Notes under the pieces: model-generated
What the model saw: only the letters and a program-made list of their open reading frames with translations
Told to the model about the DNA's origin: nothing
Database searches by the model: none
Part shown: one piece after another, positions 280-13,921 of the stretch
Numbering within the stretch: the first letter of the stretch is position 1
Layout: the number at the start of each line of letters is the position of its first letter
Assembly (NCBI GenBank): GCA_002189035.1
Contig: NEEC01000018.1
Coordinates: forward strand, 1,364,001-1,428,000
Length of the DNA: 64,000 nucleotides
DNA from: Utricularia gibba
Lineage: Eukaryota; Streptophyta; Magnoliopsida; Lamiales; Lentibulariaceae
Reading direction: 5' to 3'
Translations under genes and position numbers: made by a program

Positions 280-596
280 GACTGCACCAAGGATTTTCCG
301 TCAGTCGCACCAAATGAGATAAATTAGGGTTCCCAAAAAAAGAATTCAGGGGGAGAACAGTTCCCAGTAGAATCCGTTGTCCGCCCTTCAGTATGAGGCA
401 TTAGTCACAGTTATATACTAATTAAAATTTTTAAAACGAGCGCGTGTGTTACACTTCCGCTTTACGCGGCTGGGACATTATTGGAGTTTAGATGGCAGTT
501 ATGAAAATGGAATGCCATCTCAAATTTGGATTTGGGCTCCGATCTCGGGAGTTCCGATAGCCTACTTCAGGCAGCCACCGTAGAAATATCCTAAAT

Positions 597-2447
<1,851 letters not shown>

Positions 2448-3243
2448 TTTTTGTGTTTGATGCAGATCCTTTACTGAAACAGTATAAATTACGACAAAGG
2501 TTCTGTGGCTGCACACCATGATCTACCACAGATATGTATGATAATTATTCAATAATGTAACTTTTTTTTGGGTAAAATGACATTCTTCACACGCTGATGA
2601 GAAAATTTCACTTTACACGTTTGATGTAAAACTTCAGATCAGGATCAGGATTACACTCTTTTCATAATATAAAGTTGTTAGGCTGCAGTCTTTTCATTTT
2701 AACCACAGGATCAGGATTGCAGATAACACTACTGTGTGTACCTGTTTTTTAAAAAAACAGCCATCTTAAGCAGCACAACACCCTGCTAGTTGATCAGTAA
2801 CCCCACTTCCACACGGTTTATAAGCTCATCAGAAGGCGTAGAACTCTACTTTTTTTTTTTTCATGTTAATCGAGTTCATTTTAACGCAAAAGGTGTAAGC
2901 TCACCAAAAGGCATAGAACCCCACTCCTGTTTTATGTTTTAGTGCTTCATACTCCAAGATGATCGCAAAGCATACCATGTGATGTCATACACTATGCATC
3001 CTCTGATGTATTTACATACTCAACGTAACGGCGCCACCCACAGTTGAAAATTTGCATTGGATTTTGCTAACCAGTTATCATGTACAGGGGCCGTGTTTCT
3101 CTCCTGGTCGTGGCAGATTCTCTGCACTTGCCACCTTCATAGAAATGATTAGTGGCATAAACACGTGACATGTTATTTCTGGTAAAGTAGATCGGTATCA
3201 CATTGAATTCCTGGATGATGCAATGTTTGCAACTTGCTCTGTG
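2448..3243. other. spacer between TPI pseudogene and SAUR array
   Basis: No gene is seen. The right part is the promoter of the first SAUR gene and contains a CACGTG G-box at 3162-3167, about 205 bp before its ATG. G-boxes are known targets of PIF and BZR-type regulators of SAUR genes; whether this one is used is inference. Confidence 0.5.
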
Positions 3244-3252
3244 TATATATAG
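3244..3252 (+). promoter_or_regulatory. TATA box of first SAUR gene
   Basis: TATATATAG lies 120 bp upstream of the ATG at 3372. SAUR genes are intronless with short leaders, so the spacing fits. Confidence 0.65.
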
Positions 3253-3371
3253 CTCACCCCTCTTGCAGAATGTCAAACACCAGCAAATCTTCTGAGCAAC
3301 TTTGTGCCTATTCTTGGAAGTTTATGCTACTTTTCATTCTGTTTTGCCTGATTTCTTGTCTTCAAGTATAA

Positions 3372-3650
3372 ATGGCTATCCGGAAGATCATCAAACGTTC
3401 CCTTTCCTTCGATAAAAGAGGAGTTTCACCAGGGAATGAGGTCAGGAAAGGGCATTTTGCTGTGTATGTTGGGGAGAATGACAAGGAAAGGAAGAGATTT
3501 GTGATCCCTGTGTCCTACTTGAAGTATCCATCTTTCCAAGAACTGCTACTTCTAGCTGAGGAAGAGTTCGGGTTCGATCATCAGAGTGGTGCGCTTACCA
3601 TTCCATGTAGCGAGCGTCTCTTTGTGGAGATAATCTCCCGCTTCACATGA
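3372..3650 (+). CDS. SAUR: small auxin-up RNA (SAUR) protein, 92 aa
   Basis: Intronless gene for a SAUR protein. It has the N-terminal helix [12 protein letters not shown], then the conserved core [35 protein letters not shown] and GALTIPC, and it ends soon after the last block, as in the SAUR19-24-like clade. These proteins promote cell expansion by inhibiting clade D PP2C phosphatases, which keeps the plasma-membrane H+-ATPase phosphorylated. The core carries a one-residue insertion (ENDKERKRF) relative to the next copy. It is the first of three tandem SAUR units on the plus strand. The ATG is the first in frame, 120 bp after a TATA box. The family call is firm; the exact orthologue is not assignable. 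Confidence 0.95.
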
Positions 3651-4476
3651 TGAAACTGATGAGCAGAAACGGAGCTTAGTAAAAAGAGCCCGGCAGCTCC
3701 ATTTTGTAGGTAGTAAAGAACTAATCTTGGTACCTATATAGATCTGTATGAACATTCCTTGTAAAATAATAGTTGGGGTTCGCGTTTGGCACCTAACAGC
3801 AGAATCATTGAAGCCAAACAAGGAACAATTTGTATGCTTGAGAGATGTATCATAAAACATTACTACTGAAACTAGATTATCAGACAGAAATCTTATTTAT
3901 TAGACATAAGCAATGACAAATCCATGAGAACCAAATATACTTGCCCAAAAAAAGACTAGTTAGCCAGAAGTCATTGAACCAGAGAAAAAACTGCCTGCAT
4001 TCCTCTTCTTCCTTTTCTCATGTTGCTTTGATCTCCACACTGAGCTACTCCTCTTCAGTCCTCACCACACCTGTGCATTCGTTACTGGTTTTCACATCAA
4101 GTTCCATGTGCATTTTCTTATAAAACGAAGGAAGAGCAACCCCCCAACAATTCTTATCTAATCATTGCTCAGTACACTGTAGAGAACAACGAAGCCATGT
4201 GCTGATTCTTCAGCATGTTTAGGGCTGAGCTGACTGAAACGTTTCTTTAACATCTGTGATGTTTGAATGTCTCAGACGTGCCTTTAATGAGTTTCCACGG
4301 AAATTTCAAGAAAAAGCAGAGATGCAATACAAAGAAGGACACGGCCCTACTCCTCAACGTACCCGCCAGCACAATCATGATCACTCCAGCAGCGCAGCAT
4401 TGCTGACAGGCCACCAACATATGGCTCTCATGTGCTCCTGGGATTTTCCAATCTTCGAAATGTCATCTCTTGTGGG
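3651..4476. other. intergenic, promoter of second SAUR gene
   Basis: No gene seen. A block around 4160-4260 is recognisably repeated upstream of the SAUR pseudogene (about 5415-5520; both contain GAAGCCATGTGC-type sequence), which shows that promoter and coding region were duplicated together. Confidence 0.5.
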
Positions 4477-4486
4477 TTATAAATGC
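4477..4486 (+). promoter_or_regulatory. TATA box of second SAUR gene
   Basis: TTATAAATGC lies about 120 bp before the ATG at 4602, the same spacing as in the first SAUR gene. Confidence 0.65.
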
Positions 4487-4601
4487 AACCCCGTGATCAT
4501 CCTTCCATCTCACAACCTGCTACAAGAACAACAACAAGAGAGAAAAATTTATATCCTCCATTCCTCACTTTCCCCACTTCAATTCCCACTAGAGAGAAAC
4601 A

Positions 4602-4871
4602 ATGGCGATTCGGAAGATGTTGAAGCGATCTCTTTCGGGTGAAAGGAGATCAATTTCTTCAGGAAACGAGGTCCCAAAGGGGCATCTCGCCGTGTACGTC
4701 GGTGCCGATGAAAAGAAGCGATTCGTTATACCAGTGTCGTGCTTGAACAGTCCCTCGTTTCAAGAGCTGCTGTCTCTGGCCGAAGAAGAATACGGATTCC
4801 AACATCCGATGGGTGCTCTCACAATCCCCTGCAACGAAGATTTCTTCTTGGAGATCGTATCTCGAAGTTGA
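4602..4871 (+). CDS. SAUR: small auxin-up RNA (SAUR) protein, 89 aa
   Basis: Second intact, intronless SAUR gene. It has [17 protein letters not shown], then [36 protein letters not shown] and GALTIPC, ending EIVSRS. Length and motif order are typical of SAUR20-like proteins. It shares more with the downstream pseudogene (the SGEKRSISS-type segment and flanking DNA) than with the first copy, so those two are probably the younger duplicates. The expected role is inhibition of PP2C.D phosphatases in auxin-driven acid growth. No lesion is seen. Confidence 0.95.
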
Positions 4872-5857
4872 ACCTTGGAGAATCCAGATGCCGACGACTC
4901 GGCAGATTTGAATCCGATTCAACCGGGAACCCTCATCCAGTTACCGAAACCATGAAAGCGGTGGCTCGAGGATCCAGTACAACAGTAGTAGGGAACCTGC
5001 AATGAGATTTCCAGTGCCTCTTGTAAATTGACTGAGTAACAGTAGATGCTAATGATCATTTTCTTAAACAAAAAAGGACTCAAGTTTAGCTATCTCCACT
5101 GCCTCGAAATTGTCGTATAATTGTAGACAGCAAAATTTCTTAGACAGGAGCTCATAAACCTGACCAAAAAAACTGAAACAAAAGAAGAACAAATAGAAGA
5201 AGAGATGTATACCAGAAATGCAACAATCCCATTACTAGTGAAGTGGATTGCACCGGGACATTCTTTATTTAACATCCAGAGTGATAAATCTGGCACTACA
5301 AAAGGGAAAAGAACAGTGCAGGCAAACGAAGAGGCATAGAAACATCACCAGTGGATTTCACAGTTCCAATTGCATGGAGTAACACAGTAACGCCCAGTAA
5401 TTCCATTTCCACCAAGGTTTATACACTGTAGACGACAGCGAAGCCATGTGCAGATTCAACATGTTTGGCATTGGAAGTGATTGAAGTCGACTTCACAGCT
5501 GTGTTGTGTTTAATGTCCGTGATGTGCAGTACATTCAACGAAAGGAAACCCCACTGACATTCAACAATAAGCTGTGGTGTTCCATGAATGAAATGAAAGG
5601 AGCGCAGGGGCCTACTCCGTAACGTACCAGCAAGCAGAGATGTCCATCACTGCCCAAGATCAGCAAAGCTGTTTGTGACAGAACACCAACATGTGAATCT
5701 CAGCTGCTCATGGAATTTTCAACTCTTCAAGATCTCATCTTTTGAGGTATGTATACACATGCGACCCGGGATCATACATAAGCAATAGAATTCCTCCCAA
5801 TGCACATCAAATTCCTCACCCATCTCCCAACTCTCACACCTCAAGAAAAAATTTTCA
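4872..5857. other. intergenic, duplicated SAUR promoter relic
   Basis: No gene seen. The part from about 5415 is a diverged copy of the promoter of the second SAUR gene. Its TATA position has decayed to a GTATGTATACAC-like sequence near 5743. Confidence 0.45.
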
Positions 5858-6038
5858 ATGGCGATTCGTCATATACAGAGAGGCGACCTCTTTCGGGTGA
5901 AAAGAGATCAATTTCATCCGTAAACGTTACCCCATCTCCCAATTCTCCCACCTCAAGAAAAAAATTTCAATGGCGATCCGTCATATACTGAGAGGCGATC
6001 GCTTTCGGGTGAAAAGAGATCAATTTCATCCGTAAACG
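5819..6038 (+). repeat. 112-bp tandem direct repeat
   Basis: The segment 5819-5926 recurs at 5931-6038 with few differences. It holds the 5' leader, ATG and first codons of the SAUR pseudogene. The exact 112-bp period suggests one slippage or unequal-exchange event. Confidence 0.85.
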
Positions 6039-6180
6039 AAGTACAAAATGCGCACATCGCCGTATACGTCAATGGCGGTAAAAACGAGCGGTTGTGCCGT
6101 TCATCAACAGCCCTCGTTTCAAGAATTGCTGCCTCATCCGATGGGAGGCGTCACCATCCCCCGCTACGAAGATTTGGGAG
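5858..6180 (+). pseudogene. SAUR: SAUR pseudogene with internal tandem duplication
   Basis: Relic of a third SAUR gene. The start region is present twice, with ATGs at 5858 and 5970, exactly 112 bp apart. After each, two extra bases in the helix codons shift the frame to an early stop. Downstream the family pattern is still readable (SGEKRSISS, HIAVYV, PSFQELL, HPMGGVTIP), but about 30 bp covering the LAEEEYGFQ segment is deleted at 6132 and the C terminus diverges near 6178. A piece of this tail also starts the second unit of the adjacent tandem duplication. No functional SAUR can be made. Confidence 0.85.
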
Positions 6181-6373
6181 CCCAATTCCAATGTACCCGC
6201 CGAATGAAGAACCCATGCCCTAGAGGCTGAATGACAGCAGCCGGAGGAAGAACTGGGTAATATGTTGTTTGTTGCTTCCATTAAAACCCTTTAATTTGTA
6301 ATTAACGTGTTGTTTAATTAAACAAATTACCCATTAAGAAAAGCCATCATTTATTCATTAGAACAGTGTTCAC

Positions 6374-7744
6374 TCACTGTAACATGCTTACAATGTTTAT
6401 GTCCGAAGCATGCGCCAGAGCTTCTTCCCTGAGCTGTTTTGATCTACTTCTCGCACCTTCATGTCCCATGAGCTTCACTATCATGGCGGCTATTTCCCCT
6501 CCATCTACCAAATCCTTCTGACCCCAACCCCATTTGCCCATCATTCCGAAGCCCCCCTTCTCCACCACCCCCGCATTCACCATCTGATCACCGTGCTGCG
6601 GCCACGCCAGTATCGGAACGCCATACCTAACGGCCTCCACCACTGAATTCCACCCACAGTGGCTCAAAAAGCCTCCAACAGCTCTATGACCCAGAACCGC
6701 TTCCTGATCCACCCACCCCTTAATCACGATTCCCTTGTTCTTCGTCTTCTCCAGAAATGATGCTCCTAGTATGTTTTCGATCTCTTCCTTATCATCTTTG
6801 TCCACTTTGCTGCCTTTAAACACCCATAAGAAGTTGCACTTGCTTTGCTCCAACCCGGAGGCGAGTTCTCGGAATTGGTTTAGGGGGAGCGACGTTCTGT
6901 TTCCGAAGCTGACAAAGAGGACGGACTCTGGGGACTGGTTGTCCAGCCAGGGAAGAACATTGATAGTTTCTGCTTTTAAATCGAAGCTGGGTAAGGGGCC
7001 AATGGGGAGAATTGTTGATGGGAGAGTACTCTTGAGTTCTTCAACTGCTTCTGGTTCCAAGGAGGAGAACGAGTTTATGAGAACCCCTTTGGATTTGTGC
7101 AGAGATGAGGCGTTTGTGGATATGTTGGCCGAAAAGAAGTAGTGTGGATCGAGAATGGGAGGAGGAATTCTTGAAATTGGTATCTGCGTGAACTGGGAAA
7201 GTTGAAATTCTGAATCTGAACGCTGTTGCGCATTCACTTTCTCTTGAAGAATCCGAGGGAGTTGAGACATTAGAGTGAAAAATGTGGCGGAAGTAGTAAT
7301 AAGAGTGAAGACAGGAATGGAGAGAGTAGACGCCAGTTCAGAAACGGCAGCAGTCACCCCAAAATCGGCGACGATGGCAGAAATTGGGGACGACAGAGAA
7401 GAAGAGGAGAGTTGAGAAGACAAGAGAGGAACGGAATTGTATATGGATTCAACTTGAATAAAGAAGGGATCCACATTTGTGAACTTGGATCCGGTGTGAG
7501 GAAGCAAGTGAAAGTCGAGGCGGTGGATGGCCGGGAAGGAGGTGAAGAATTGGGAAAGTAGTTGGGATTCAGCGTGGCTGACCGTGGGTTGGGGGATGAT
7601 CAGAGTGACGACGGCGCCGCGAGAATTGAGCATCACGGCGAGGCGGAGGAAGGGGAGCAAGTGGCCCGTGCCGGCGCAGGGAAGGAGAGCAAAATGGAGT
7701 TTCGCTTCGGCGCTGCCGCCGTTGGTTATTGGCTCCATCGTCAT
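6374..7744 (-). CDS. UGT708: UGT708-family UDP-glycosyltransferase (C-glycosyltransferase type)
   Basis: Intronless 456-residue family 1 glycosyltransferase. The N-terminal acceptor domain has the catalytic His in CAGTGH (H28) and the DPF motif at 92-94, a hallmark of UGT708 enzymes such as buckwheat and soybean flavonoid C-glucosyltransferases. The 44-residue PSPG donor box runs from about W344 to Q387 (WVDQEAVLGH, HCGWNS, HGDQ). The likely reaction is C-glucosylation of 2-hydroxyflavanones or related acyl-phloroglucinol compounds in the cytosol; the substrate is inferred from family only. Start is ATG 7744; an in-frame ATG two codons later is the one that aligns with the duplicated copy. 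No lesion is seen. A fragment matching the first codons of the gene lies about 115 bp upstream. Confidence 0.92.
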   Translation of the reverse strand: MTMEPITNGGSAEAKLHFALLPCAGTGHLLPFLRLAVMLNSRGAVVTLIIPQPTVSHAESQLLSQFFTSFPAIHRLDFHLLPHTGSKFTNVDPFFIQVESIYNSVPLLSSQLSSSSLSSPISAIVADFGVTAAVSELASTLSIPVFTLITTSATFFTLMSQLPRILQEKVNAQQRSDSEFQLSQFTQIPISRIPPPILDPHYFFSANISTNASSLHKSKGVLINSFSSLEPEAVEELKSTLPSTILPIGPLPSFDLKAETINVLPWLDNQSPESVLFVSFGNRTSLPLNQFRELASGLEQSKCNFLWVFKGSKVDKDDKEEIENILGASFLEKTKNKGIVIKGWVDQEAVLGHRAVGGFLSHCGWNSVVEAVRYGVPILAWPQHGDQMVNAGVVEKGGFGMMGKWGWGQKDLVDGGEIAAMIVKLMGHEGARSRSKQLREEALAHASDINIVSMLQ

Positions 7745-7945
7745 CGGGACAAAACAAACGGTGGCCAGTGAGAGGGTAAGTTGGATAACGTCGGTGAATA
7801 TGAGCAGGTTTTATCCGGAAGAAGTAATAAATTCCCCCGGCGCTGGTTGTTGGCTCCATCGCCTTCTGCACAACACGCGGTGGCTGGTAAGGGAAAATTA
7901 GGTACAACGACCACGCACGCCGTATCTTCCTCACAAGTGGGGATT
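7745..7945 (-). promoter_or_regulatory. UGT708 promoter with a repeated start-codon fragment
   Basis: Upstream of the intact UGT708 gene. At 7859 (minus) there is an ATGGAGCCAACAAC fragment encoding MEPTT, flanked by sequence like that around the true start (GGTGGC and GACAAAACA-type blocks at about 7755 and 7870). A block of about 118 bp therefore seems tandemly duplicated. The TATA-like GGATAAAAC at 7812-7820 (minus) is weaker than the ATATAAATAA at the same position before the second copy. Confidence 0.5.
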
Positions 7946-8177
7946 GAAAAGGAGCGGTTGTGTCGTCCCCATGCTTACTCCGGCAACCACAGTCGCCGGC
8001 GCAGCTCCGCAGATTTGGGAGCCCTAATTCCAATTCCACCGCCGAGGACAGCAACGGTCGCCATTGGAAACATATTATTTCCATTAAAACTATTTAATTT
8101 GAATTAATTTTTTTATTTAATTAAATAAATTACCCATTAAGAAGCCGTTATTTATTCATGAGAGAATTGACGCGCGC

Positions 8178-9543
8178 TCACTCTAACATGCGCATGATGT
8201 TGATATGAGAAGCGTGCGCCAGAGCTTCTTCCTTGAGACTTTTTGCTCTGCTTCGCACACCTTCATCTGCCATGAGCTTCACGATCATGGCGGCTATTGC
8301 CCCTCCATGCACCACCTTATTCTGGCACCAGCCCCAGTCTTCACCCATAATTCCGAACCCCCCTTCTCCACCGCCTCCTCATTGACCATCTGATCGCCGA
8401 GCTGCGGCCAGGCCAGTACCGGAACCCCAGACCTAACGGCCTCCACCACTGAATTCCACCCACAATGGCTCAGAAATGCTCCAATCGCTCTATGACCCAG
8501 AATCCTTCCCTGATCAACCCATCCCTTAATCACCATTCCCTTGTTCTTCGTCCTCTCCAGAAATGAGGCTCCAAGTATGTTTTCGATCTCTTCCTTGTCT
8601 TCTTTGTCCACTATGTTGCCTTTAAACAGCCATAAGAAGTTGCATCCGCTTTGCTCCAACCCGGAGGCGAGTTCTAGAACTTGGTCTACGGGGAGGGATG
8701 TTCTGTTTCCGAAGCCGACAAAGAGGACGGACTCTGGGGGCTGATCGTCTAGCCAGGGAAGAACATTGACAGTGTCTGCATCTGAACCGAAGCAGGGCAA
8801 AGGGCCAATGGGAAGAATGGGTGATGGGAGGTTACTCTTGAGGTCTTCAAGTGCTTCTGGTTCCAAGGAGGAGAATGTGTTTAGGAAAACTCCTTTGGAT
8901 TTGTGCAGAGATAAGACGTTTGCGATTATGTTGGACGAAAAGAAGTGGTGTGGATCAAGCATGGGTGGAGGAATTTTTGAAACTGGTATCTGCGTGAACT
9001 GGGTAAGTTGAAATACTGAATCTGAACGCTGCTGCCCGTTCACTTTCTCTTGAATAATCCGAGGGAGTTTAGACATTAGATTGAAAAATGTGGCGGAAGT
9101 AACAGCGAGGGTGTAGACAGGAATGGCGAGTGTAGAAGCGAGTTCAGAAACGGCGCCGGTAACCGCAAAATCGGAGACGATGGCAGTTATTGGGATGGCA
9201 GAGAAGAAGAACGGAGTTGAGAAGACAAGAGAGGAACGGAGTTGTATATGGATTCAAATTGAATGAAGAAGGGGTCCTCATTCTTGAAGCTGGATTTGGT
9301 GTACGGAAGCAAGTGAAAGTCCAGGCGATGGATGGCCGGGTAGGAGCTGAAGAAATGGTTAAGTAGGTGGGATTCAGCGTAGCTGACAGTAGGCTGGGGG
9401 ACGATCAGAGTGACCGCAGCGCCGTGAGAATTGAGCATCGCGGCGAGGCGGAGGAAGGGGAGCAAGTGGCCCGTGCCGGCGCAGGGAAGCAGAGCAAAAT
9501 GGAATTTCGCTTCGGCGGCGCCGCCGTTCGTTGTTGGCTCCAT
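8178..9543 (-). pseudogene. UGT708: second UGT708 copy, two frameshifts
   Basis: Close tandem copy of the neighbouring UGT708 gene, with the same His (CAGTGH), a DPF motif (EDPFF) and PSPG box. Two single-base deletions break it, both beside short runs: C4 to C3 at about 9192-9194, giving a stop after about 118 codons, and loss of one base after G6 at 8358-8363, just past the PSPG box. Correcting both on paper gives an open frame to TGA at 8178-8180 that stays collinear with copy 1, so decay is recent or the lesions are sequence errors. A strong TATA-like element (CTATATATAG, 9568-9577) and another at 9616-9628 precede it, so it may be transcribed. Confidence 0.85.
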
Positions 9544-9694
9544 CGTCTTCGGGAATATGAGCAGCAACTATATATAGGAGAAAGAATGCACCCTATCGTC
9601 GGTGAATATGAGCAGCTTATTTATATCTGGAAGAAGCAATAAAATCATCGCCGGTGAGAGGGGAAATAGTTGACGACGACCACAGACGCCTCGT

Positions 9695-9779
9695 TTCAGA
9701 AGTGGGGTTTCAACCCAGGCTCACCCACGTGAACCTGAACTCGGTTTCTGGCGCCATGAAACCACTCGGCCATCCTGAC
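9695..9779 (-). pseudogene. tRNA-Leu pseudogene
   Basis: Reading the minus strand from 9779 gives GTCAGGATGGCCGAGTGG, the 5' end of plant nuclear tRNA-Leu with an intact A box, then GGCGCCAGA and a T-arm-like GGGTTGAAACCCCAC ending TTCTGAA. Faults: the first acceptor pair is G-A, the anticodon stem and loop no longer fold normally and lack U33, and the B-box has G for the invariant C. Length is about 85 nt, as for leucine tRNAs. It marks the right end of the UGT708 tandem duplication. Confidence 0.7.
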
Positions 9780-9890
9780 AAGAGATGCTCAATCATGCAA
9801 TTTCTCACCAAATAATGTTTTCCGATGCTGCTAGATTAGTACTTGGGTAGTAATAACAGAAGCAAACATCTCTGTATTCACAGAAAGCTA

Positions 9891-11574
9891 TCATTTTGGA
9901 TCATTGGTCGCTGATGCACTTCCTTTGGACACTTGAGACTGCTGATATTCATCGTTCTGATGCTCCTGATCAATGTTCAATTCACTTGGTTGACGTTCTT
10001 CTCGCACAGGGGATGCCTGGAGGCTCATCATAACCAGGTGGAACTCCGAGCTCTCTCGAGTTACCTCCATTGTCTCCAACTTCAGTCGTTGCACTTCTGT
10101 CGACAGTGCACTGTGAAGCGCTGCCATAGAAGCATTACATTCTTATTTAGCGCAGTAACTTGAAAACTGAAGCATTGGAAATCCATACCATCCTGGAGTT
10201 GAGCATGTTGCTGCATGGCCTGCAACCGGTACTTGAGCTCATTGTTATGGTTTGACAATTCAATTGTTTCTCTCTGAAAAAAGAAGAAAACAACAGATGA
10301 AAGAAAGTTCATCTCTGAAGTATTCCCTTCTTGAACTTACAAAAGGGTTGCTCAGCTCAACTCCCTCACCTGAAGCACAGTAAGTTGAGCGCACAATGAT
10401 GTTGCTTCAGCTTGTAGTGCACGAACCTTGCTTTCCAAATCAGCCATGTATCGCATCTTTCGCTCTTTTGATCGAGCAGCCGATTGCCGGTTCGCCATGA
10501 TTCTGCATCACAGGTCAGGAATAACTATTCATCATTCTTTCTTTATGGATTAAGAAAACAGAGCATGAAGTTGATACCTAGTAGCCCTCTTGGAATCACT
10601 TGATTCTGTCTCAGTTGACCTCCCACTTGCCTCTACTGTGTTTGCAGCTGCACCCTGCCTGAACAGCATCCCTTGAGGTAGAGCCATTTGGGGAGACTCT
10701 GCACCAAAATATGCATTTCTCTGGCTTCCATCTACTGATAAACTATGGCGATGCTTACCCTTAGAAGCCATGCCCCTCGTACCATTCCTTCTTACCCCTT
10801 CACTTATTTTCATGGTGCTTTCACTGCCGCTAGTTTCATCATTTTCACTGAAGCTACGTCCATTTATCTTCATCTCATCTTCTTTCCCCTTCAGAGAATT
10901 CCCAAGGAAGTTGTGTGGATTCTCAGAGTTCATATAAAAAGCGGTGAGGTCTTCACCATGCCTCCCTGGAGCCCATTCCTCTCCCTGATATGAATCCCTC
11001 TTCAGCAATGAACTCTCTCCATCAACAAAACTCCTATCAAACTGACAGGTACTTGTAATTTGGTTCTCTGATAAAGCTTGCAGTTCAGGAAAGTACCTGC
11101 TGAACATGAAGAGGATTGAGTTTTATTGTAGCATTTGTGACAGATGAAGGTGTCAGCTTACCCATAAGAGAAATCACTGTTAAATCTCCGATGATTATGT
11201 TCCCGAGGACCTGTTTCTCCAATCCACAACGCTCCACTCGAGGAAGGAAACAGCAAAGGGAAAGATTTCCCTTTCATGTCCTCCATGGCAACATCGCCAA
11301 ACAGACTGTCTGAAGGAGGCAAAGAATCAGGTCCAAGATACAGGTTTCTGAAACCTGATGAAGATGAATGAGGATGAGCAACACCAAAACCATTGATTCT
11401 GGTGCGTGTTTCAGCATCAAACTGCAACTGAAGTTGATTATTCCTATCAAATGAATCCTGCTGCTGCTCTCTAAGAAGCCATGATGATGAAGAAGCTTCA
11501 TGGAGTTTCTGAGCAACCTTTTCAGGAGAAGACTCAGTGCTAGCCCCTCCTTCAACATAACCATATCCACTCAT
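9891..11574 (-). CDS. group I bZIP transcription factor (VIP1/bZIP29/bZIP52 type)
   Basis: Five coding exons: 11574-11162, 11099-10578, 10502-10370, 10273-10189 and 10120-9891. Together they give 1,383 nt, a 460-residue protein. The basic region (from about residue 312) reads [20 protein letters not shown]: Asn, seven residues, then Lys in place of the usual Arg, the signature of plant group I bZIPs. A long leucine-zipper helix follows. The N-terminal half is disordered and has HRRFNSD, an HxRxxS-type site, and RHSLSVDGS; in VIP1 relatives such sites bind 14-3-3 proteins and hold the factor in the cytoplasm until osmotic or touch signals release it. The second acceptor is CAGCAG, so two products differing by one residue are possible. 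The exact orthologue is uncertain. Confidence 0.9.
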
Positions 11575-13354
11575 TTCACACACTAGCACTTGAACCAGAC
11601 AAAAACAACAGGGGGTTTGTCCACCAGTATGCCTGTTTAAAAAGCAGTGCAAAATGTGGTAGCATCTGGAAATCCCAGAACCTGCGGGCCAGTTTTCGAT
11701 TCAAGGAAAATGCAACACACCTGTATAGATATCTATTGTTGGTAACCACATAAACAACACCAGATTTGCACTCCAAACATATCCACAAAACAACAGCACA
11801 AGGACACAGACACAGATAATTTTCTTTTGTCCATCTTTCCAAATCATTGATTACGAATCTAACTCAACCATGAACACGATGGGAAGGCTGCTAACTCGAC
11901 AACCCACATACTACAATTATGAAGCATTAGGCAGGTTGCTTTCTTTTAGTGAGAGCAGTGAGTGTGTTAGGTTTTCTGCATCAGAAAAACACAGTGGCGT
12001 TGCTGGTTTGGTTCATCACCCCAACCATTTCACGCTTCTGTGCATGCGATCTTTTTGTCTGGGTGGCTTTTAATGATGCTGTAAATGCATTCAGTGGCCG
12101 TTACCAAAAGCATTTGGGGCACTGCATGAAGCATGTAATAACAAATGTTTTGTCACTTCTTGTTGTATACATTCCCTTCTCGCTGAATCACTTGCTATAA
12201 TTAGAAACGGTGTGGGCCAGTAGATTACCGGTAGCCAACCCGACCCGTTTATTTACAAGTTTTTTTTAACTATTTTATTTTAATTTCACTAAATTTTGGT
12301 TTCCTACATGATTCTTCTGAAATTTAGGACTTTAAAATATATATATTTTTAATAGAATTCGATTTCTTTATATCCATCTAAATTTCAGACTTTAAATTGA
12401 ATTATAAATCAAAAATAAAAAATTTAGGTACCCCAAGTACAAGACAATTAAATATTATAACTTTTAAAAATTAAATAAAATTATTTTAAAAAATTCTATT
12501 TATATAATAAGTCCTAAGACTAAATAAATATAAATATGGTAAAATTAAAGCAACATTTTGGTTGTTATGGGATTTCCCTTATAGAAGCGACCATTTTTGG
12601 CTCTCATAATTGTGGAATTATTTTGGGATGGATGCTGCTATTTATATTAAATTAAGTAACTCCATACACAAAAATGAAATAATTAGGATAGTCGTTATTA
12701 AGGTATGTTCTAAAATAGGATATGGTTCGATTTCGAGTTATCGAAAAATATTAGAAACTAATTTTATTTCATATGTCAAACTTTAAAAACCAAACATGTC
12801 TGATATGTTAAATAATAACAATCAATTATGTCAATAGAGACTAACCAAGATTTGCCTAACTTGATTTTTGATGCCATAAGCGCATTTTAAGTGTAATAAT
12901 AAAGGTTATGACACCAAGATTTGCCTAACTTGATGCCTACTGGTTGAGTTGGATGAGAAAACTTTAATCATCGTTACTTTTTAATTAAGGTGGGGAAAGT
13001 ATCTTAGTGCACTAACTATATGTTTATATTTGGGGATAATTATATTGAAAAAAAATCATGAAACCTAATTGGGTCTAAAAATCATGAAACCATAATATGC
13101 TAAAATTGGGCCTTTTAAAGCCCTATAAATCCACCTAGGACCCCTTTGATACATATAATAAGATTTGATTTTCTCTATGATTGCATTTTTTTTTTTATAT
13201 GATGAACAAATCCACCTAAATCTCATATATACTATTGTATACCAAATGAGCTCCTGATTGATTTAGAAATATAGTCAAACTATGTAGAAAAATTAAATTT
13301 TTAATTTTTTGTATTAATATGTGATAAATAAAATAAAGATGAATGGAACTTCGG
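11575..13354. other. bZIP 5' region and AT-rich intergenic DNA
   Basis: The first several hundred bases should hold the leader and promoter of the bZIP gene; no TATA box is obvious. From about 12,250 the sequence is strongly AT-rich and no gene is seen. A weak inverted-repeat pair at about 13,145-13,170 and 13,230-13,255 (TTTGATACATATAATA versus the complement of TATTGTATACCAAATG) could be an old MITE. Confidence 0.4.
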
Positions 13355-13921
13355 CTATTTTTTTTTTGTTGTTGCCGCGTGTACCATGATTAAGCGCGTC
13401 GACATGGTGATCGAATCCGAACCGAATACGATCCGGGTGAATTCGATCGATCTATAGAAAATCTGTAGGGGAAACATCGGATCCATCAAGACGATAGTGG
13501 TTTCAGCAAAAGCATCTCCGAAATGCTTCCAAAACGCGTGATCTCCGACCTGCTTGCGGAAGCCAAGGAAAATCGCAGCATCCGGAAACAGAGGATCCGT
13601 TAGATGCTTGAGAGACAATTGGATCGACGCGGATCTTCCGTCGACGAAATTCGAGAGCAATATGATGTTTCTCAAGGAACAGCCGCGGGCGACCGCTCGG
13701 AAACACTTCCACCGCGTCGAAACCACGGTCACGCCTCAGGCGGACACTCCGATCCTGTGCGTGAAGCCGGTAACGCATCGGACGCAAGGATGTTCATCGC
13801 ACAGCTTCGCGGGGGATTCGGACTGCAGATCCTGTCGACGGATTTCCTTGATTAGGGCATGCGCGCGGGATTCACGAGGGCCAGTGTCGATGGCGAAGCT
13901 CGACTGGTCGTTCACCGCCAT
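13355..13921 (-). pseudogene. interrupted reading frame of unknown family
   Basis: From ATG at 13921 the minus strand encodes 61 residues (MAVNDQSSFAIDTG...), then TGA at 13736-13738, and then stays open in the same frame for another 126 codons to TAG at 13355. The block is much richer in GC than the AT-rich DNA on both sides, as a coding relic would be. A C-to-T change of a CGA codon would explain the stop. I do not recognise the protein in any frame. Another minus-strand frame is also open over 13503-13787, so even the reading frame is uncertain. No intron signals are evident. Confidence 0.3.

Follow-up and report, generated by a model that had tools for sequence, protein, structure and literature searches.

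The window, by which we mean the whole stretch of DNA analysed here (C409:1364001-1428000, 64 kb), contains two UGT708-type C-glycosyltransferase genes, copies A and B, that lie head to tail together with remains of a SAUR gene (SAUR3) and of a tRNA-Leu gene (Table 1). Genome-wide searches were run against the assembly (100.09 Mb in 516 contigs), where these two copies were the only UGT708-type genes found, at a single matching locus. No second UGT708 locus that could serve as a single-copy outgroup was found in the genome, the next UGTs being only ~33% identical over most of their length.

Table 1. Features of the UGT708 locus (window positions) and landmarks of the sister block on contig C98.
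Feature	Position	Strand	Remarks
SAUR3 relic	5937-6240	+	almost complete but without an intact frame; left end of unit A
Duplication unit A	about 6078-7944		from alignments; left breakpoint corresponds to ~6078 within SAUR3
UGT708-type C-glycosyltransferase copy A (by homology)	6374-7744	-	intact single-exon ORF, 456 aa; Pfam UDPGT
Partial second copy of UGT start region and leader	7837-7909		relative of 7716-7790; older local duplication or remnant
Junction, ~18-base 3' end of tRNA-Leu	7931-7948	-	TGAA (about 7945-7948) common to SAUR
Duplication unit B	7945-9713		from alignments
Truncated SAUR3 remains	7945-8067	+	left end of unit B; brief coding stretch (GAAAAGGAGCGGTTGTGTCGT) plus 3'UTR of SAUR3
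UGT708-type copy B	8181-9543	-	two 1-base deletions relative to A; otherwise free of internal stops when read in A's frame
tRNA-Leu(CAA) relic	9694-9779	-	74/87 alignment columns identical to intact C98 tRNA; 9 substitutions, 3 indels
TPI	C98:2138167-2140250
tRNA-Leu(CAA), intact	C98:2156643
bZIP-like gene	C98:2157627
Further collinear sequence	C98:2201044-2213894		corresponds to window 13.4-23.4 kb

Copy A is classified as a UGT708-type enzyme, for which C-glycosylation of flavonoid precursors is predicted. Its closest solved relatives are SbCGTa (6lg0; 58% identity, E 1.7e-152) and SbCGTb of Scutellaria, followed by UGT708C1 (46.8%) and other C-glycosyltransferases. UGT families are named by a rule of ~40% or more amino-acid identity to named members, a level that copy A exceeds towards both SbCGTa and UGT708C1. 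The likeness extends to a complete 44-residue PSPG box and to aligned positions of the His/Asp pair. Different here is the presence of two tandem copies, the second of which is frameshifted, and the C-glycosyltransferase activity of the Utricularia copies is a prediction from sequence.

Copy B retains the PSPG box with 8 changes, H41L among them, and its two deletions lie beside homopolymers at codons 119 and 399, close to plus-strand positions 9,192 and 8,356 respectively. Ka/Ks between the copies is 0.48. When SbCGTa and SbCGTb were used as outgroups, 25 derived amino-acid changes were assigned to A as against 33 to B (P 0.36), and the estimated rate of evolution of copy B is not significantly above that of copy A. 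Its 451 aligned codons hold no internal stop, where ~2.7 would be expected under free drift since the duplication. The lack of stops and the similar counts of changes imply that copy B was constrained for most of its life, and its frameshifts would therefore be either late or homopolymer errors of the assembly. Because many other UGT genes of the assembly have open frames of 480-530 residues, two assembly errors in a single UGT gene would be unusual.

Local alignment of the two copies yielded one unbroken diagonal of 1.56 kb (6276-7834 against 8079-9646, offset ~1,804), which spans the whole UGT gene and parts of each flank. Beyond this diagonal, the right flanks stay in register as far as the tRNA piece and continue into it (7883-7945 against 9650-9710; score 51, the top of 1,000 dinucleotide shuffles being 41), and the left flanks consist of SAUR remains (score 65, shuffle maximum 52). 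The self-dotplot proposed in the preliminary description was run and placed homology outside the coding region on both sides rather than within it alone; its two head-to-tail units, each with a minus-strand UGT708 gene, are borne out by the continuous diagonal and the homologous flanks. The copies differ at ~13% of coding positions, and their flank deletions are not the same. The units meet at one junction that links the 3' end of the tRNA to the SAUR, with the full tRNA at the far end and the fuller SAUR at the near end. The UGT708 pair is a real, well-resolved tandem gene duplication, and the kind of event is ordinary.

The start-codon region of copy A (7716-7790) recurs in part upstream of that gene, where there is a second MEPTT-like start. 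About 45 bp of this start-region repeat seem to be missing from unit B, so that the repeat may predate the tandem duplication.

A sister block is present on contig C98, which is collinear with C409 over ~75 kb in the same order and strand: the TPI region, SAUR1, SAUR2, SAUR3, tRNA-Leu(CAA), a bZIP-like gene and additional sequence reaching to window 23.4 kb. The tRNA relic and the SAURs have their best relatives in the same region of C98, and SAUR3 and the tRNA are intact there. SAUR3, tRNA-Leu and the bZIP-like gene each occur once on C98, and no UGT stands between them. A search for a UGT remnant or its flanks in the ~310 bp between the C98 SAUR3 3'UTR and the tRNA gave no clear remnant and one weak opposite-strand flank score (2/500 shuffles) in A/T-rich DNA. 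As judged from these homologies, the C98 block shows in which order the two end points stood ancestrally, and it is compatible both with loss of the UGT from C98 and with its insertion on C409. The label 'bZIP' is our reading of the sequence, the exons having given no match in Pfam.

The two blocks differ in their spacing. TPI and SAUR1 are ~0.9 kb apart on C409 vs 12.8 kb on C98 (window 300-13,500 compared with C98:2138167-2201044), and the bZIP-like gene is ~2 kb from the next match on C409 vs 43 kb on C98, a strong one-sided shrinkage or expansion. The triosephosphate-isomerase-like gene at window 600-2500, which has a relative on C98, shows by eye a frame shift and an in-frame stop and is probably decaying. 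The sister SAUR2 frame (C98:2154218-2154480) is split by a 1-base deletion in a G run, which may be genuine or may be an assembly error of the type considered for UGT copy B.

Comparison with the intact SAUR3 of C98 identified the SAUR remains at both left ends. The relic of unit A matched it at 72.9% (blastn, E 5e-29), with an additional 85% over 40 bp, and its alignment to the C98 SAUR3 with untranslated region scored 101 (shuffle maximum 56). In unit B, 7984-8035 matched the C98 SAUR3 3'UTR (E 2.4e-7), and 7984-8062 scored 75 against SAUR3 with untranslated region (shuffle maximum 45). Each unit had been described as starting with a SAUR-tail fragment; SAUR remains do occur at both places, but the relic of unit A is nearly whole and thus more than a tail. 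Unit A retains the SAUR3 coding tail and little 3'UTR, whereas in unit B a little coding sequence is left together with a clear section of 3'UTR. Because the units retain different pieces of SAUR3, the copied segment must originally have been longer than either surviving end, different parts having been lost from each copy later. A 108-bp direct tandem repeat (5819-5926 and 5931-6038, 94% identical) also covers the leader and 5' end of this relic; it is single in the C98 sister block and far more recent than the duplication of the UGT.

The fuller tRNA-Leu sequence at the far end of unit B had been taken for a pseudogene, and the present analysis agrees. ARAGORN recognised no tRNA fold with a CAA anticodon at this position, although it called all four of the best genomic relatives of the relic, as tRNA-Leu(CAA). 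Letters of the variable arm are common to the relic and the C98 tRNA and absent from the other three copies, as expected of sister copies. The relic differs from the intact C98 tRNA at 9/83 positions, a divergence of 0.117 with a wide interval (5-20%). If the C98 copy has been constrained, this value is about one lineage's share since the tandem duplication, and the tRNA was therefore probably still intact, or just dead, at the time of the break.

At the junction (7931-7948), the sequence TCACAAGTGGGGATTGAA is identical at 15/18 positions to the last 18 bases, terminal two excepted, of the intact C98 tRNA-Leu(CAA), and it runs on into GAAAAGGAGCGGTTGTGTCGT, a piece of SAUR coding sequence. Taken by itself the 18-base match is weakly significant, its score being equalled in 10/1,000 shuffles (~1%). 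The tRNA reading of the junction holds because the match sits exactly at the place to which the alignment of the right flanks points, the remainder of the tRNA relic is found at the matching place in unit B, and SAUR sequence starts on the other side. The preliminary description had joined a tRNA-Leu 3' segment to the SAUR at ~7,932-7,950, which the in-register match upholds; the eight letters that it quoted, AAGTGGGG, prove nothing alone and were rejected as stand-alone evidence, as they occur 9 times in the 64-kb window on both strands.

The corresponding sequence is ATTTGAACCC in the intact tRNA and GGTGAAAAG in the intact SAUR3. Both contain TGAA, which is preserved at the junction; this microhomology is read from the intact C98 homologues, both C409 parental sites having mutated since. 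The probability of at least four shared bases at a random join is 1.6%. The C98 sister block contains no long homologous repeats flanking the single-copy unit, of the sort used in non-allelic homologous recombination. Judged from these sequences, the join fits best with a microhomology type, not with crossing-over between long repeats.

The tandem duplication was dated relative to the block duplication by synonymous divergence. Comparison of the UGT copies gave a Ks of 0.25 (bootstrap 0.19-0.31), and that of the C409 and C98 blocks a Ks of 0.50 (0.44-0.565) for pooled constrained pieces and SAUR1. The tandem duplication is accordingly younger than the block duplication, most likely ~half as old. 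This ratio is approximate, because the 0.50 pool was adopted after a first value was known, takes in some TPI-region frames whose status is uncertain, and retains any piece with Ka less than half of Ks, a filter that biases towards high Ks. The first value, from the bZIP-like gene pooled with SAUR1, was 0.33 (0.25-0.44) and overlaps that of the UGT copies. A bulk comparison of the bZIP-like gene (Ks 0.29, Ka 0.23) was discarded as unreliable for dating, the exons not being delimited and one piece seeming to run past an exon end.

Taken together, a single tandem duplication with its ends in mid-SAUR3 and in the 3' part of the tRNA, joined at TGAA and occurring after the block duplication, is very probably the correct history. 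The order SAUR - UGT708 - tRNA-Leu that had been proposed for the original block, with one tandem duplication and breakpoints in the tRNA on the right and the SAUR on the left, is supported by the flank alignments, the parts of the junction and the order of end points on C98. In this history, a large block would first have been duplicated, most likely through one of the whole-genome duplications of the lineage, two recent ones being known in Utricularia gibba (PMC8333044). C409 would then have carried SAUR1 - SAUR2 - SAUR3 - UGT708(-) - tRNA-Leu(-) - bZIP-like gene(-). About halfway to the present, the segment from mid-SAUR3 to ~18 bases inside the tRNA 3' end would have been copied in tandem, the tRNA end being fused to the SAUR across TGAA, presumably by microhomology-mediated end joining or by template switching in replication. 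Neither the SAUR nor the tRNA was damaged by the duplication itself, as each kept one whole copy; the left SAUR3 and the right tRNA would then have decayed independently on C409, their counterparts on C98 staying intact. Both UGT copies would long have been under similar constraint, relaxed yet real, before B gained its two frameshifts (or assembly errors).

Similar tandem and segmental duplications are known from microhomology-based routes (MMEJ, FoSTeS/MMBIR and yeast MMIR; PMC2518615), with which the present pair shares head-to-tail copies, a short shared junction sequence and, like one sequenced case from yeast, a breakpoint within a tRNA. In yeast MMIR, 5-10 bases are shared, compared with four here, and the present case is an old natural event in a plant, read from sequence.

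A refinement of the single-duplication history would make the tRNA causal, a replication fork having halted at the transcribed tRNA and then taken the SAUR as its new template. We consider this possible but doubtful. The probable state of the tRNA at the time of the break speaks for it, as does precedent in yeast, where segmental duplications have microhomology junctions in or beside tRNA genes (PMC2518615) and tRNAs are ~threefold enriched at breakpoints (PMC2675101). The likeness to the latter is a tRNA gene at the breakpoint, but here it is one case as against an enrichment there, and a right breakpoint placed at random between the UGT and the bZIP-like gene has a ~24% chance of hitting the tRNA. 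The suggested role of the tRNA as a fragile site is thus conjectural, given this chance of landing there and a 4-base microhomology that explains the join without the tRNA, and its plausibility derives from the yeast precedent.

Alternatively, a larger duplication comprising the whole SAUR3 - UGT - tRNA segment may have come first, the 5' parts of the first tRNA and of the second SAUR being deleted later. Small deletions are abundant in the region, A and B lack different parts of the SAUR3 tail, and the end sequence would be identical; this course nevertheless takes two events where one suffices, no leftover of the extra sequence was seen, and it is unlikely. Unequal crossing-over between repeated SAUR genes by homologous recombination is suggested by the SAUR array at the locus and the SAUR sequence in the junction. 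It is highly improbable, and largely refuted, as the sister block has no SAUR on the right-hand side of the UGT position and the junction joins tRNA to SAUR through only four shared bases, not SAUR to SAUR. An assembly artefact, with haplotypes or a misjoined repeat placed end to end, has almost no probability in view of the coding difference of ~13%, the distinct flank deletions and the one matching locus in the genome.

In old tandem duplications, erosion has usually made the junction unreadable. For the single tandem duplication favoured here, both parental ends can be identified through their intact counterparts in the sister block, which place it in time relative to the duplication of the block and point to a microhomology join. 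It would be a speculative step, and one we rate as improbable, to suppose that, in line with the yeast cases, a transcribed plant tRNA may act as a break-and-switch site duplicating a neighbouring metabolic gene and that similar tRNA-anchored tandem duplications recur in this genome. As a single case illustrating known mechanisms, the locus is of modest interest; it would gain value as a seed for a genome-wide test of whether tRNAs are found at tandem-duplication junctions in plants more frequently than expected by chance.
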